This document shows positions 43,707 to 49,884 of a stretch of 64,000 nt of DNA, in pieces. The stretch lies in assembly GCF_002741055.1 (NCBI RefSeq), contig NZ_CP016809.1, positions 434,001 through 498,000 of the forward strand, given 5' to 3'. The notes beneath the pieces are model-generated. The model was not told where the DNA came from, did no database searches, and worked only from the letters and a program-made list of their open reading frames with translations. Within the stretch, counting starts at the first letter, position 1, and every line of letters starts with the position of its first letter. Made by a program: the position numbers and the translations under genes. Source of the stretch: Paenibacillus ihbetae (GTDB taxonomy: Bacteria > Bacillota > Bacilli > Paenibacillales > Paenibacillaceae).

Positions 43707-43856
43707 GATCATCCGTGCCGAGCATCAAACGATCAATATTGGGCTTGAACAGCACGCATTCACTTGATCCTGATGTGCCTGTTATAATGATACGGTAACC
43801 GATCATATTATCATCGATCGCCTCATGTCATGGTACCAAGGGAGATAAGAACTGGA

Positions 43857-44720
43857 ATGCGTCTTTTTTCATATGCAGCTTCCTTCATTGCCGCATGGCG
43901 GGATTACCCGGCAGAAGCGGATTCCGTGCTTGGAGACCGATATACCGTCAAGCGCATGCTTGGTGAAGGAAGCTACGGAATGATCTACTTATGCGAAGAC
44001 CGGGACAGCAAGGAAATCGTAGCCGTGAAGCAGGCGAGGCCGAGCAAGGGCCATTTGGCCAAAACCCTGCTTCACCGGGAGGCAGCCGTTCTGAAATCAT
44101 TAGAACATCCTCATATTCCAGAGTACAAGGATTTCTTCACGGACAAGAATAAGGACTTTCTGGTGATGTCCTTTATCGAAGGGGATACGCTGGAGGATTT
44201 AATCTTCGACCAAGGCCGAAGGTACACGGAACAGGAATGCCTGAACATTACGCTGCAGCTTTTGGAGATTGTGACCTGCATTCATCAGCAAGGGGTGATC
44301 CACCTTGATCTTCGGATCCCGAACGTGCTGTTTATGAACGGAGAGCTGCGATTAATCGACTTCGGCCTTGCTCGCAGAGTTGGAGAGCCCCCGCCGCTGC
44401 AAAAACCTAAGCGAATATGGACACGAACATCCCGCTTGGATTCCTCAATACCGGCCAAACGGGCCGAAGAAAACTCGGATTTGGCGGATATCGGTCATTT
44501 TATGCTGTTCATGCTGTACTCGGCCTATGAGGTGGAAAACAGTCCGGATCAGACTGAGCGAAGCTGGCAGGAAGAATTGAATCTCTCAGCTGAGTTAAAG
44601 CTCATGCTTGAACGCTTGCTTGGGATCCGGGAACCTTACCAGGGATCCTCGCATTTCATGAATGAGCTGCGCGAGCTCTATTCGTCATACGGCCCGGCAA
44701 TGAGCGACATGCCCGTTTAA
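43857..44720 (+). CDS. Eukaryotic-type Ser/Thr protein kinase, YbdM-like
   Basis: A soluble kinase of 287 residues. The glycine loop is LGEGSYGMIYL, the ATP-binding Lys58 is in VAVKQ, the catalytic loop is HLDLRIPNVLF with Asp151, and the metal-binding DFG is at 168-170 (IDFGLARR). HLD replaces the usual HRD. No membrane helix or PASTA repeats follow, unlike PrkC, so it resembles the small YbdM-type (PrkD) kinases. The ATG at 43857 has AAGGGAG about 11 bases upstream; an in-frame ATG at 43830 has none. The next gene on the same strand encodes a Ser/Tyr/Lys/Arg repeat protein that could be a substrate. Confidence 0.9.
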   Translation: MRLFSYAASFIAAWRDYPAEADSVLGDRYTVKRMLGEGSYGMIYLCEDRDSKEIVAVKQARPSKGHLAKTLLHREAAVLKSLEHPHIPEYKDFFTDKNKDFLVMSFIEGDTLEDLIFDQGRRYTEQECLNITLQLLEIVTCIHQQGVIHLDLRIPNVLFMNGELRLIDFGLARRVGEPPPLQKPKRIWTRTSRLDSSIPAKRAEENSDLADIGHFMLFMLYSAYEVENSPDQTERSWQEELNLSAELKLMLERLLGIREPYQGSSHFMNELRELYSSYGPAMSDMPV

Positions 44721-44841
44721 ATGGTCGCTTCTTCTTTAAATCTCTACAGCGGCGGGTAAAGTTGAATACGGGGTTTATTCTATGATAATATCCGATTAGC
44801 ACGATGAAATGACCTCGAACAAGACAGGAGGCCACAACAAA

Positions 44842-45117
44842 ATGTTTAAAAAGATCGTGAATAAGCTTCTTCACTCCGCATCCAGCACACATGGACGGAA
44901 GCGCTACGACAGCTCAAGACAGCACTATGGCAAGCGTTACAGCAGTTCAGGAAAACAATATGGTAAGCGATACAGCAGCTCAGGAAAGCATTACGGCAAA
45001 CGTTACAGCAGCAGCCACGGATTTTCACGCCGCAAAGCCTCTTCCTCAGACTTCAAGCATCAGCATGGTCACCGTGGGCACGGCTACTATAAAGGCAGAA
45101 AATACAGCTCAAGCTAA
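44842..45117 (+). CDS. Cationic low-complexity repeat protein rich in Lys, Arg, Tyr and Ser
   Basis: A 91-residue protein starting at the ATG at 44842 behind AGGAGG. After a short helical start (MFKKIVNKLLHSAS) it contains three to four copies of YGKRYSSSGK-like units and then a His/Gly/Tyr-rich tail ending GRKYSSS. It is highly basic and has no hydrophobic core, so it is probably disordered or part of an assembled layer. CotG-like spore coat proteins have comparable Ser/Lys/Arg/Tyr repeats and are phosphorylated by a coat kinase, and a protein kinase gene lies 120 bp upstream here. The link is inference. A strong terminator follows. Confidence 0.8.
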   Translation: MFKKIVNKLLHSASSTHGRKRYDSSRQHYGKRYSSSGKQYGKRYSSSGKHYGKRYSSSHGFSRRKASSSDFKHQHGHRGHGYYKGRKYSSS

Positions 45118-47490: not shown

Positions 47491-49884
47491 TTAATTATCG
47501 CGATTCACCATATAATTCAGGAGATGCGTGAGAAAAGCGATCGGACGAGGCAGTTCATCCAAGGCTTCCATCGCCAGGCAATAATGCTCCCACATTTCTC
47601 GTTTGGCGCCTTCAACGCCAAGTATGGTCACAAAAGTCGACGTATTGTTCTCCACATCCTGACGCGTCGGTTTCCCAAGCACATGCTGATCGCCTTCCGC
47701 ATCAAGCAGATCATCCTTGATTTGAAATGCGATGCCTGCATGATAGGCATACCGCTTCAAAACAGAGATCTCCGTCTCGCCGACGCGGGCCAGGATCGCT
47801 GGCATGACCAGCGAAGCCTCGAAAGCAATGCCGGTTTTGTAAAAGCAGATCCTGTTTAATTCCTGAAGCGTGAGCGCCGCCCCCTTGGATTGAAGGTCCA
47901 TCGCCTGCCCCATGCACATCTCCCCGGCTTTTTGCGATGAATAACGCATCAAGCGGAGTACGACCTTCGGATCGAAGCCGGACAGGGATGCTTGTTCTTC
48001 TGTCGCCTTCTGGATCAGGTACAGGCCGGTTAACTCGGCTGTTGAACTGTTATACACTTCATGCAGGGTCGCCCTTCCCCGGCGGGTAGAGGCATTGTCC
48101 TGCGAAGGCAAATCGTCAAAAATCAAGGAAGCGGTATGCATATACTCCAGTGATTTTAAAAGTGGAGTAATCGCTGACGCATCAAGCCCGTATTCCTTCA
48201 CGCCCATCACCCATGTCAGGATGGGCCGCAGCCGCTTCCCGTCCCCATCCAGACTGTAGTTGGCCGCTTCAATCAACGACGTCTTCATCGGGGGATGATC
48301 CTCCGGCTCATCGATGCGAAGCTGATTATTGATCTGCTCGCGGACCGACTGAACCGTATCGAAAAAGGCTTCACGCTCCTGCCTTTCATTTTTCAGGATC
48401 GTAACCATCTGGTCCCGAAGCAGTTTGTCGAGGAAATCCACATCATCCGCCTTTCGGACCATTCGCTGAATGAGACGGTGGAGCTCCGGCTGTCCGGAAG
48501 CGAGGACGCTCATGATCTCGTTATATTTGTCAGAGCCGAGCCGCGCTTTGCACCGTTTAAGACCGTTGATGGCACGATCCAGGATCACCTCGCGCGTCAT
48601 GGCGTCCGAACGGTATACGTTTCGAATCAGATGCGCGATGACCGCCCAGTACAATTCGTAAGGGTTGATCAAATCGGGACGCTGCTCCCTGTATTTCAAG
48701 AAATACGTATACGGCGTTACGGCTCCCTCCCTCATATCGTCGAACATATCCGCGAAGTCATCGGCCAGCTGGTTATAAATGCCGTAATAAAACGTACGCT
48801 GGTCAAAGCCTTCATCCTCCGGGGCGCTCAATACCGAACGAACGATCAATCGCGAGGAAGAGGATTTCAAGATAACCGGCAAATAAAGCTCCTCGTTGGT
48901 GTAATCGGCTTTCGATAAATCCTTCACGCGGTCCAAATGCTGGGAATGAAAAAATACGTACGATTGCTCGAAGAACGGCATTCTGAATTCCGGCCGTTGA
49001 TGTCCTTTAATGTATTCAAAGGCTTCGCGAAGCTCGGCGTGTATAAAGCGGATCAGGTTCATGTTGCTGCCGCTCCATGCTCCAAGCGCCGGTACCGTGC
49101 CCGTGAGCAGTGCGCTCCGGATCATGCGGGAATAACGCTCCTTCTCCTGGTCATTCAGCACCCCGGAATCGAGAAGATCATCGATATACGGGTAAGTCAA
49201 TCCGTAAGAATAACCAAGCCGGATGGCATGATCCAGCCTCCGTGCACGCTCAGCGGGAAAAATTTCGCCGGGAGACTCTTCAATCTCTTCGATGGCATGC
49301 ATCACGACACCGACGATGATTTTGATGAGCTTGCGCTGGGCATGCTCCGGGTTCATGTCTTCGGGGATATGGGCCGCAACGCTTTTCAGCTTGTTCATAA
49401 CCCAGATCACGGCGCTCTCTACGCCTTCCTTCTGGGCCCAGCGGTATAGACCCGCAAAGCTAATGAACGCGGGCTGTTGTCCCCCGCCGGTCCCGGTCGA
49501 GCGAATCAGGAACTGCTCAAGCCCCTTAACGACATGTTGGATCCGGGATTGGGTCTTCGGGCAATCCAGTGCCTTGCCAAGATCCCTCATATAAATATAG
49601 GACACGCTGCGATCCAGGTAGTCTTTCATTTTCCCCGTATAATTCAACCATTTCATATATCGATGGTAATCCCGCGAATCGGGTTTACCCGTGCCCCGGG
49701 TTATAAAGGACAGCCACGGTTGGCGGCCGATATGCTTCCTGCTCCACAACCGGATATCTTCTGCCAGCCCGGTTGCATAGCTTTTATCCGTAACCTGCGC
49801 TTGTAAAATCTCAAAATACCGGGCGGCCTTCTCCTCAGCTTCCTGATACCACACGTCGGCATAATCTGTAAGCTCCACATTCAT
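47491..49884 (-). CDS. Two-domain protein: Asp-rich helical domain fused to a trans-polyprenyl diphosphate synthase
   Basis: A 797-residue soluble protein. The C-terminal third (about 500-797) is a short-chain polyprenyl synthase: GDGKRLRPIL, first Asp-rich motif DDLPSQD (590-596) followed by RRG, and second motif QIKDDLLDAEGD (721-732). The DDxxxxD spacing suggests geranyl- or farnesyl-diphosphate synthesis. The N-terminal 490 residues are also helical and Asp-rich: YPYIDDLLDSG (235-239 core) and YNQLADDFADMFDD (375-383 core). They could be a second prenyl-synthase-like or class I terpene-synthase-like domain. I do not recognise the exact family. The gene stands alone. The gap of about 400 bp upstream has no gene. 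Confidence 0.8.
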   Translation of the reverse strand: MNVELTDYADVWYQEAEEKAARYFEILQAQVTDKSYATGLAEDIRLWSRKHIGRQPWLSFITRGTGKPDSRDYHRYMKWLNYTGKMKDYLDRSVSYIYMRDLGKALDCPKTQSRIQHVVKGLEQFLIRSTGTGGGQQPAFISFAGLYRWAQKEGVESAVIWVMNKLKSVAAHIPEDMNPEHAQRKLIKIIVGVVMHAIEEIEESPGEIFPAERARRLDHAIRLGYSYGLTYPYIDDLLDSGVLNDQEKERYSRMIRSALLTGTVPALGAWSGSNMNLIRFIHAELREAFEYIKGHQRPEFRMPFFEQSYVFFHSQHLDRVKDLSKADYTNEELYLPVILKSSSSRLIVRSVLSAPEDEGFDQRTFYYGIYNQLADDFADMFDDMREGAVTPYTYFLKYREQRPDLINPYELYWAVIAHLIRNVYRSDAMTREVILDRAINGLKRCKARLGSDKYNEIMSVLASGQPELHRLIQRMVRKADDVDFLDKLLRDQMVTILKNERQEREAFFDTVQSVREQINNQLRIDEPEDHPPMKTSLIEAANYSLDGDGKRLRPILTWVMGVKEYGLDASAITPLLKSLEYMHTASLIFDDLPSQDNASTRRGRATLHEVYNSSTAELTGLYLIQKATEEQASLSGFDPKVVLRLMRYSSQKAGEMCMGQAMDLQSKGAALTLQELNRICFYKTGIAFEASLVMPAILARVGETEISVLKRYAYHAGIAFQIKDDLLDAEGDQHVLGKPTRQDVENNTSTFVTILGVEGAKREMWEHYCLAMEALDELPRPIAFLTHLLNYMVNRDN

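Follow-up and report, generated by a model that had tools for sequence, protein, structure and literature searches.

Can a single bacterial protein both make a prenyl diphosphate and turn it into a terpene? The question is raised by one gene in the 64,000-nucleotide stretch of Paenibacillus ihbetae DNA studied here (contig NZ_CP016809.1, positions 434,001 to 498,000; hereafter the window). The host is a soil bacterium with a genome of 6.59 Mb. The gene occupies window positions 47491..49884 on the minus strand, as do all of its parts described below, and encodes a protein of 797 amino acids. An N-terminal class I terpenoid-synthase-like domain (residues 1-490, 48415..49884) is followed by a C-terminal trans-prenyl diphosphate synthase (residues 501-797, 47494..48384). 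Because a predicted class I fold and invariant metal-type motifs are fused to a complete prenyl synthase, the protein is best understood as one that would produce a prenyl diphosphate and then consume it itself. With moderate confidence we regard it as a bifunctional (chimeric) bacterial terpene synthase, in which the C-terminal domain would supply a prenyl diphosphate and the N-terminal domain would convert it. An original prediction, made from the DNA sequence, had proposed such a protein and is partly supported: the fusion of a class I fold to a prenyl synthase held up, its statement on domain order was wrong, and FPP (farnesyl diphosphate) is doubtful as the product.

C-terminal domain and chain length

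The C-terminal domain scored 168.1 bits against the prenyl synthase family PF00348 (cut-off 27 bits, E 2.7e-49). Conservation was examined in an alignment of 225 rows, consisting of the query, 104 loci and the 120 top database hits; 208 rows are distinct, they form 82 groups under 80% identity, and identity to the query ranges from 45 to 95%. The first aspartate-rich motif (FARM), DDLPSQD at residues 590-596 (48097..48117), occurs together with RRG in all 225 rows. GxGKRxR and the second Asp-rich motif (D724, D725 and D728 in QIKDDLLD, residues 721-728, 47701..47724) are each present in 224. Judged by family score and motifs, the domain is a complete trans-isoprenyl diphosphate synthase of the PF00348 family, as had been predicted for the last third of the protein, and all four Asp-rich motifs of the protein lie at the residues originally named.

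The earlier description as farnesyl-diphosphate-synthase-like holds as far as family resemblance goes. The NCBIfam model for farnesyl diphosphate (FPP) synthase, NF045485, gave 213.5 bits and its cut-off of 275 was not reached, so that "farnesyl" denotes a resemblance and not a product assignment. FPP is also doubtful as the product because position -5 of the FARM is Ala (Ala585 in the query) in 224/225 rows, as opposed to Tyr in 21/21 sampled IspA-type enzymes. These farnesyl diphosphate synthases, likewise members of PF00348, are unfused and carry Tyr at -5 and His at -1, whereas the fusion protein has Ala and, at -1, Phe (Phe589). The C-terminal domain groups with bacterial IspA in a tree built without fungal sequences. 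Judged by the FARM residues, a C20 product is the most likely, with a longer chain possible and C15 less probable.

Fold and motifs of the N-terminal domain

No Pfam or NCBIfam family matched residues 1-490. Structure prediction and structural comparison gave an all-alpha class I terpenoid-synthase fold, with a core at about residues 92-490; a fold unrelated to terpene or prenyl synthases, which would have spoken against the original prediction, was not found. In the full-length model, DSSP assigned one unbroken predicted helix to residues 485-519 (48328..48432), which bridges the domain junction without a long flexible linker. When the domain profile was compared with PDB sequences, only chance-like matches were obtained. 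In a viral structure library, the model of residues 1-500 matched two uncharacterised giant-virus proteins, from Cedratvirus kamchatka (E 7e-5) and Pithovirus LCPAC403 (E 7e-4), the sole two under 0.001. Going by these models, giant viruses possibly encode class I isoprenoid enzymes.

The domain contains two Asp-rich motifs, DDLLD at residues 235-239 (49168..49182) and DDFADMFDD, of the form DDxxDxxxD, at residues 375-383 (48736..48762). Their seven aspartates (Asp235, 236, 239, 375, 376, 379 and 383) are invariant in 225/225 rows. The same holds for K340, R345 and R349 in the segment KSSSSRLIVR (residues 340-349, 48838..48867), which are candidate diphosphate-binding residues. The two Asp motifs are beyond chance. 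When residues 1-490 were shuffled 20,000 times, a pair of DDxx[DE] motifs occurred at any spacing in 3.6% of the sequences and 120-160 residues apart in 0.44%, a range that was set after the motifs were known.

The first motif has the DDxx(D/E) form of class I terpene synthases (DD235xxD239) in 225/225 rows. The second motif departs from the canonical one: NSE (NDxx[ST]xxxE) was found in 0/225 N-terminal domains, all of which have Asp at motif position 5, and DDxxDxxxD stands in place of NSE or DTE. Its aspartates are at positions 1, 5 and 9, which are the metal positions of NSE. Since a canonical NSE/DTE motif is lacking, we do not count the domain among the canonical class I terpene synthases but expect it to work in their manner. 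The second motif resembles that of prenyl synthases as well, as DDxxDxxxD is present in 176/225 C-terminal domains.

The motifs of the isopentenyl diphosphate (IPP) site, GGKRxR and RRG, occur in 0/225 N-terminal domains, compared with 224/225 and 225/225 C-terminal domains. With the Asp motifs present and the IPP motifs absent, the site fits a terpene synthase or another non-elongating class I enzyme. This pattern points to a class I site that would bind an allylic diphosphate with the help of metal ions and would lack the usual pocket for IPP.

Stand-alone relatives of the N-terminal domain

A search of genomes of the phylum with the N-terminal domain detected a stand-alone protein (L179, in genome G638) with an E value of 1.9e-10, sharing 27% identity with residues 225-393 (BLASTP, E 3e-7). 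L179 is one of 3244 related proteins at E ≤ 0.001, found in Alkaliphilus, Proteiniborus and others; among the 120 matches listed, they are 402-466 amino acids long, unfused and without a Pfam family. Two of these 120 bear the name "class 1 isoprenoid biosynthesis enzyme", and the remaining named proteins are annotated as hypothetical or uncharacterised; no characterised member was found in the literature searched. In 37 aligned stand-alone members, Asp165, Asp169, Asp292, Asp293 and Asp296 are invariant, giving DNxxD and DDxxD motifs. The first motif thus differs from the DDxxD of the fusion protein.

Profile comparison by HHalign aligned the two Asp motifs of one group with those of the other at a probability of 94% (E 1.3e-7), and a larger set of N-terminal domains gave 93%. 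The two groups are thus homologous across both Asp motifs, the aligned part being residues 225-394 only. In the opposite direction, a genome search that started from the stand-alone profile performed less well, recovering three genomes with stand-alone genes and one of eight fusion genomes (E 3.1e-4). Against PDB sequences this profile gave chance-like matches, except for one weak octaprenyl synthase (E 0.15). Based on these profile comparisons, the N-terminal domain probably shares ancestry with the stand-alone family and is not a duplicate of the C-terminal domain. An internal duplication of the latter received an HHalign probability of 0.6% and was rejected as a recent event.

Alternative functions of the N-terminal domain

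A class I fold with metal motifs does not by itself define a cyclase or lyase. The domain might instead transfer a prenyl group to a peptide, aromatic or polar acceptor, or act as a head-to-head synthase, and for an acceptor transferase an identical fold and the same metal motifs would suffice. The label carried by the two named stand-alone relatives is also attached to a Bacillus velezensis gene that, from its position, we take to be comQ, encoding a peptide prenyltransferase. However, among open reading frames of at least 70 amino acids at 80 loci, some of them incomplete, no conserved neighbour that could serve as acceptor accompanies the fusion gene, and the domain did not match a known transferase family in a comparison that left out ComQ, squalene synthase and phytoene synthase profiles. 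We consider this function unlikely, though it is the strongest of the competitors. A second chain-elongating synthase, which would make the protein a tandem enzyme for a longer chain, is less probable still. It agrees with the DDxxD type of both N-terminal motifs and with the Foldseek search, in which prenyl synthases occupied the top rows. In addition, 7/10 scanned N-terminal domains matched Pfam polyprenyl_synt below the cut-off, its second motif being aligned with the second N-terminal motif in 5/7 and with the first in 2/7. Prenyl synthases were absent from the 50 VIA-align matches listed, although they may rank lower, their HHalign similarity to the domain was weak (18%), and the missing IPP-site motifs point to a non-elongating enzyme.

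Least probable, by a small step, is a catalytically dead N-terminal domain serving as a regulator of, or scaffold for, the C-terminal prenyl synthase. Inactive class I partners are known, for example the small subunits of heterodimeric prenyl synthases. Such partners usually lose their catalytic residues, whereas here the seven motif aspartates and several Arg and Lys residues are retained in every row. The domain is also constrained like the C-terminal one: the ratio of nonsynonymous to synonymous substitution rates (dN/dS) against Paenibacillus lactis was 0.083 for the N-terminal and 0.076 for the C-terminal part, for one pair, a second pair being saturated.

Returning to the bifunctional terpene synthase, the C-terminal domain would condense IPP and dimethylallyl diphosphate (DMAPP) to a prenyl diphosphate, most likely C20 or longer, that would be passed to the N-terminal domain. 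There, Mg2+ held by DDxxD (235-239) and DDxxDxxxD (375-383) would bind the diphosphate group, and ionisation would lead to release of a linear or cyclic terpene or a terpene alcohol.

Comparison with known terpene enzymes

Fungal chimeric terpene synthases have an N-terminal class I terpene synthase and a C-terminal prenyltransferase, and are called unique to fungi in the available text of a 2021 paper (PMC8307374). The bacterial protein, which the original prediction had placed in the opposite order, thus has the same domain order as fungal enzymes such as fusicoccadiene synthase, insofar as that text describes them, and the folds agree too. It differs from them in its C-terminal domain, which groups with IspA, in the DDxxDxxxD second motif in place of NSE, in the link to a stand-alone bacterial family and in the continuous predicted helix between the domains. 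The N-terminal domain has about 490 residues, and the fungal cyclase domain is shorter. The IspA-type C-terminal domain, the bacterial stand-alone kin and the modeled helix may be signs of an origin separate from the fungal chimeras. Among other terpene enzymes, geosmin synthase joins two cyclase-type domains and delta-cadinene synthase is a plant enzyme, both without the prenyl synthase domain of the bacterial fusion.

A class I-like fold is also known in Bacillales from the class IB terpene synthases YtpB and BalTS (PF10776), for which the available text of PMC7839719 gives the motifs DYLDNLxD and DY(F,L,W)IDxxED. Despite this likeness, a YtpB-like identity was rejected: these motifs occur in 0/225 N-terminal domains, PF10776 was not matched up to E 10, and the HHalign probability was 0.6%. 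The same genome encodes a separate YtpB (PF10776, G000:C1:5053590-5054576, G000 being the P. ihbetae genome). The usual step after YtpB may be missing there, since no match to the C-terminal family of squalene-hopene cyclase was found in the genome.

A search of open-access titles and abstracts, with subscription journals and preprints outside its scope, yielded no bacterial fusion of a terpene synthase and a prenyl synthase. The available text of a survey from 2025 on the terpene genes of endospore-forming bacteria, which includes one Paenibacillus, lacks the terms "fusion", "bifunctional" and "polyprenyl synthetase" (PMC12654598), and that of a survey from 2020 on terpene synthases in bacteria lacks "Paenibacillus", "fusion" and "polyprenyl" (PMC7192455).

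Distribution and genomic context

With residues 1-490 as query, at least 1333 protein clusters were found at E ≤ 0.001. PF00348 was present in all 120 matches listed, the named ones being mostly called "polyprenyl synthetase family protein". A 41%-identical relative as query also gave at least 1333 clusters, and 119 of the 120 matches listed contained PF00348; the single relative without it was P0140 (590 amino acids), and the named matches include three Clostridium species. The closest named relative is from P. lactis (94% protein identity). A scan of species genomes gave 119 loci, mostly in Paenibacillus and other Bacillales. The N-terminal domain was detected in 25 of 250 Bacilli genomes (P. 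ihbetae, five congeners, 15 others of the same family and four more) and in 9 of 398 genomes of the phylum, these being eight fusions and the stand-alone homologue in G638. Within the same family 28 of 59 genomes have it, in contrast to YtpB, which is present in 59/59. A fusion gene with 64% identity to the query lies on a contig labelled Arthrobacter beigongshangensis; either the gene was transferred horizontally, or the assembly is contaminated or carries the wrong label.

The genomic context was compared for the best 80 of the 119 loci, using open reading frames of at least 70 amino acids, with some loci incomplete at their ends. No constant neighbour was present and the next commonest families occurred in 15/80. 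A gene-cluster or operon function was rejected, the fusion gene being the sole constant. Genes around one further fusion locus and two stand-alone relatives were uninformative. In P. ihbetae, a YugN-like gene lies upstream of the fusion gene and a gene for a MerR-type regulator downstream.

An 87-bp segment of the 5' part of the gene (window 49712-49798) has a second copy with 94% identity at about G000:C1:5618532-5618618 (L029 1514-1600). The surrounding 3.1-kb locus (L029) is otherwise without a match to the window, which marks the copy as a stray gene shard. Elsewhere in the window, a gene for a Ser/Thr protein kinase (PF00069, E 9.6e-35) at 43830-44720 is followed at 44809-45117 by a gene for a small protein of KRYSSSGKHYG-type repeats without a Pfam match. 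At a guess, the two might be a kinase and its spore-coat-like substrate.

Implications

The fusion proteins form a conserved and uncharacterised family, which motifs and models make most likely to be the bacterial equivalent of the fungal chimeras. A wider proposal, for and against which we see the case as evenly balanced, is that Bacillota harbor a widespread and unrecognised chimeric family that arose independently of fungi. It would combine a new class I terpene synthase subfamily with an IspA-derived synthase for C20 or longer chains and, with no gene cluster around it, would turn IPP and DMAPP into a di- or sesterterpene that is as yet unknown. One gene and these two precursors would suffice. 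If the N-terminal domain is active, bacteria evolved the domain order of the fungal chimeras separately, and the domain would represent a further class of terpene synthase, undetected by Pfam and NCBIfam and hidden under names such as "polyprenyl synthetase family protein". The fusion also offers a first way into the function of the 3244 stand-alone relatives of its N-terminal domain.
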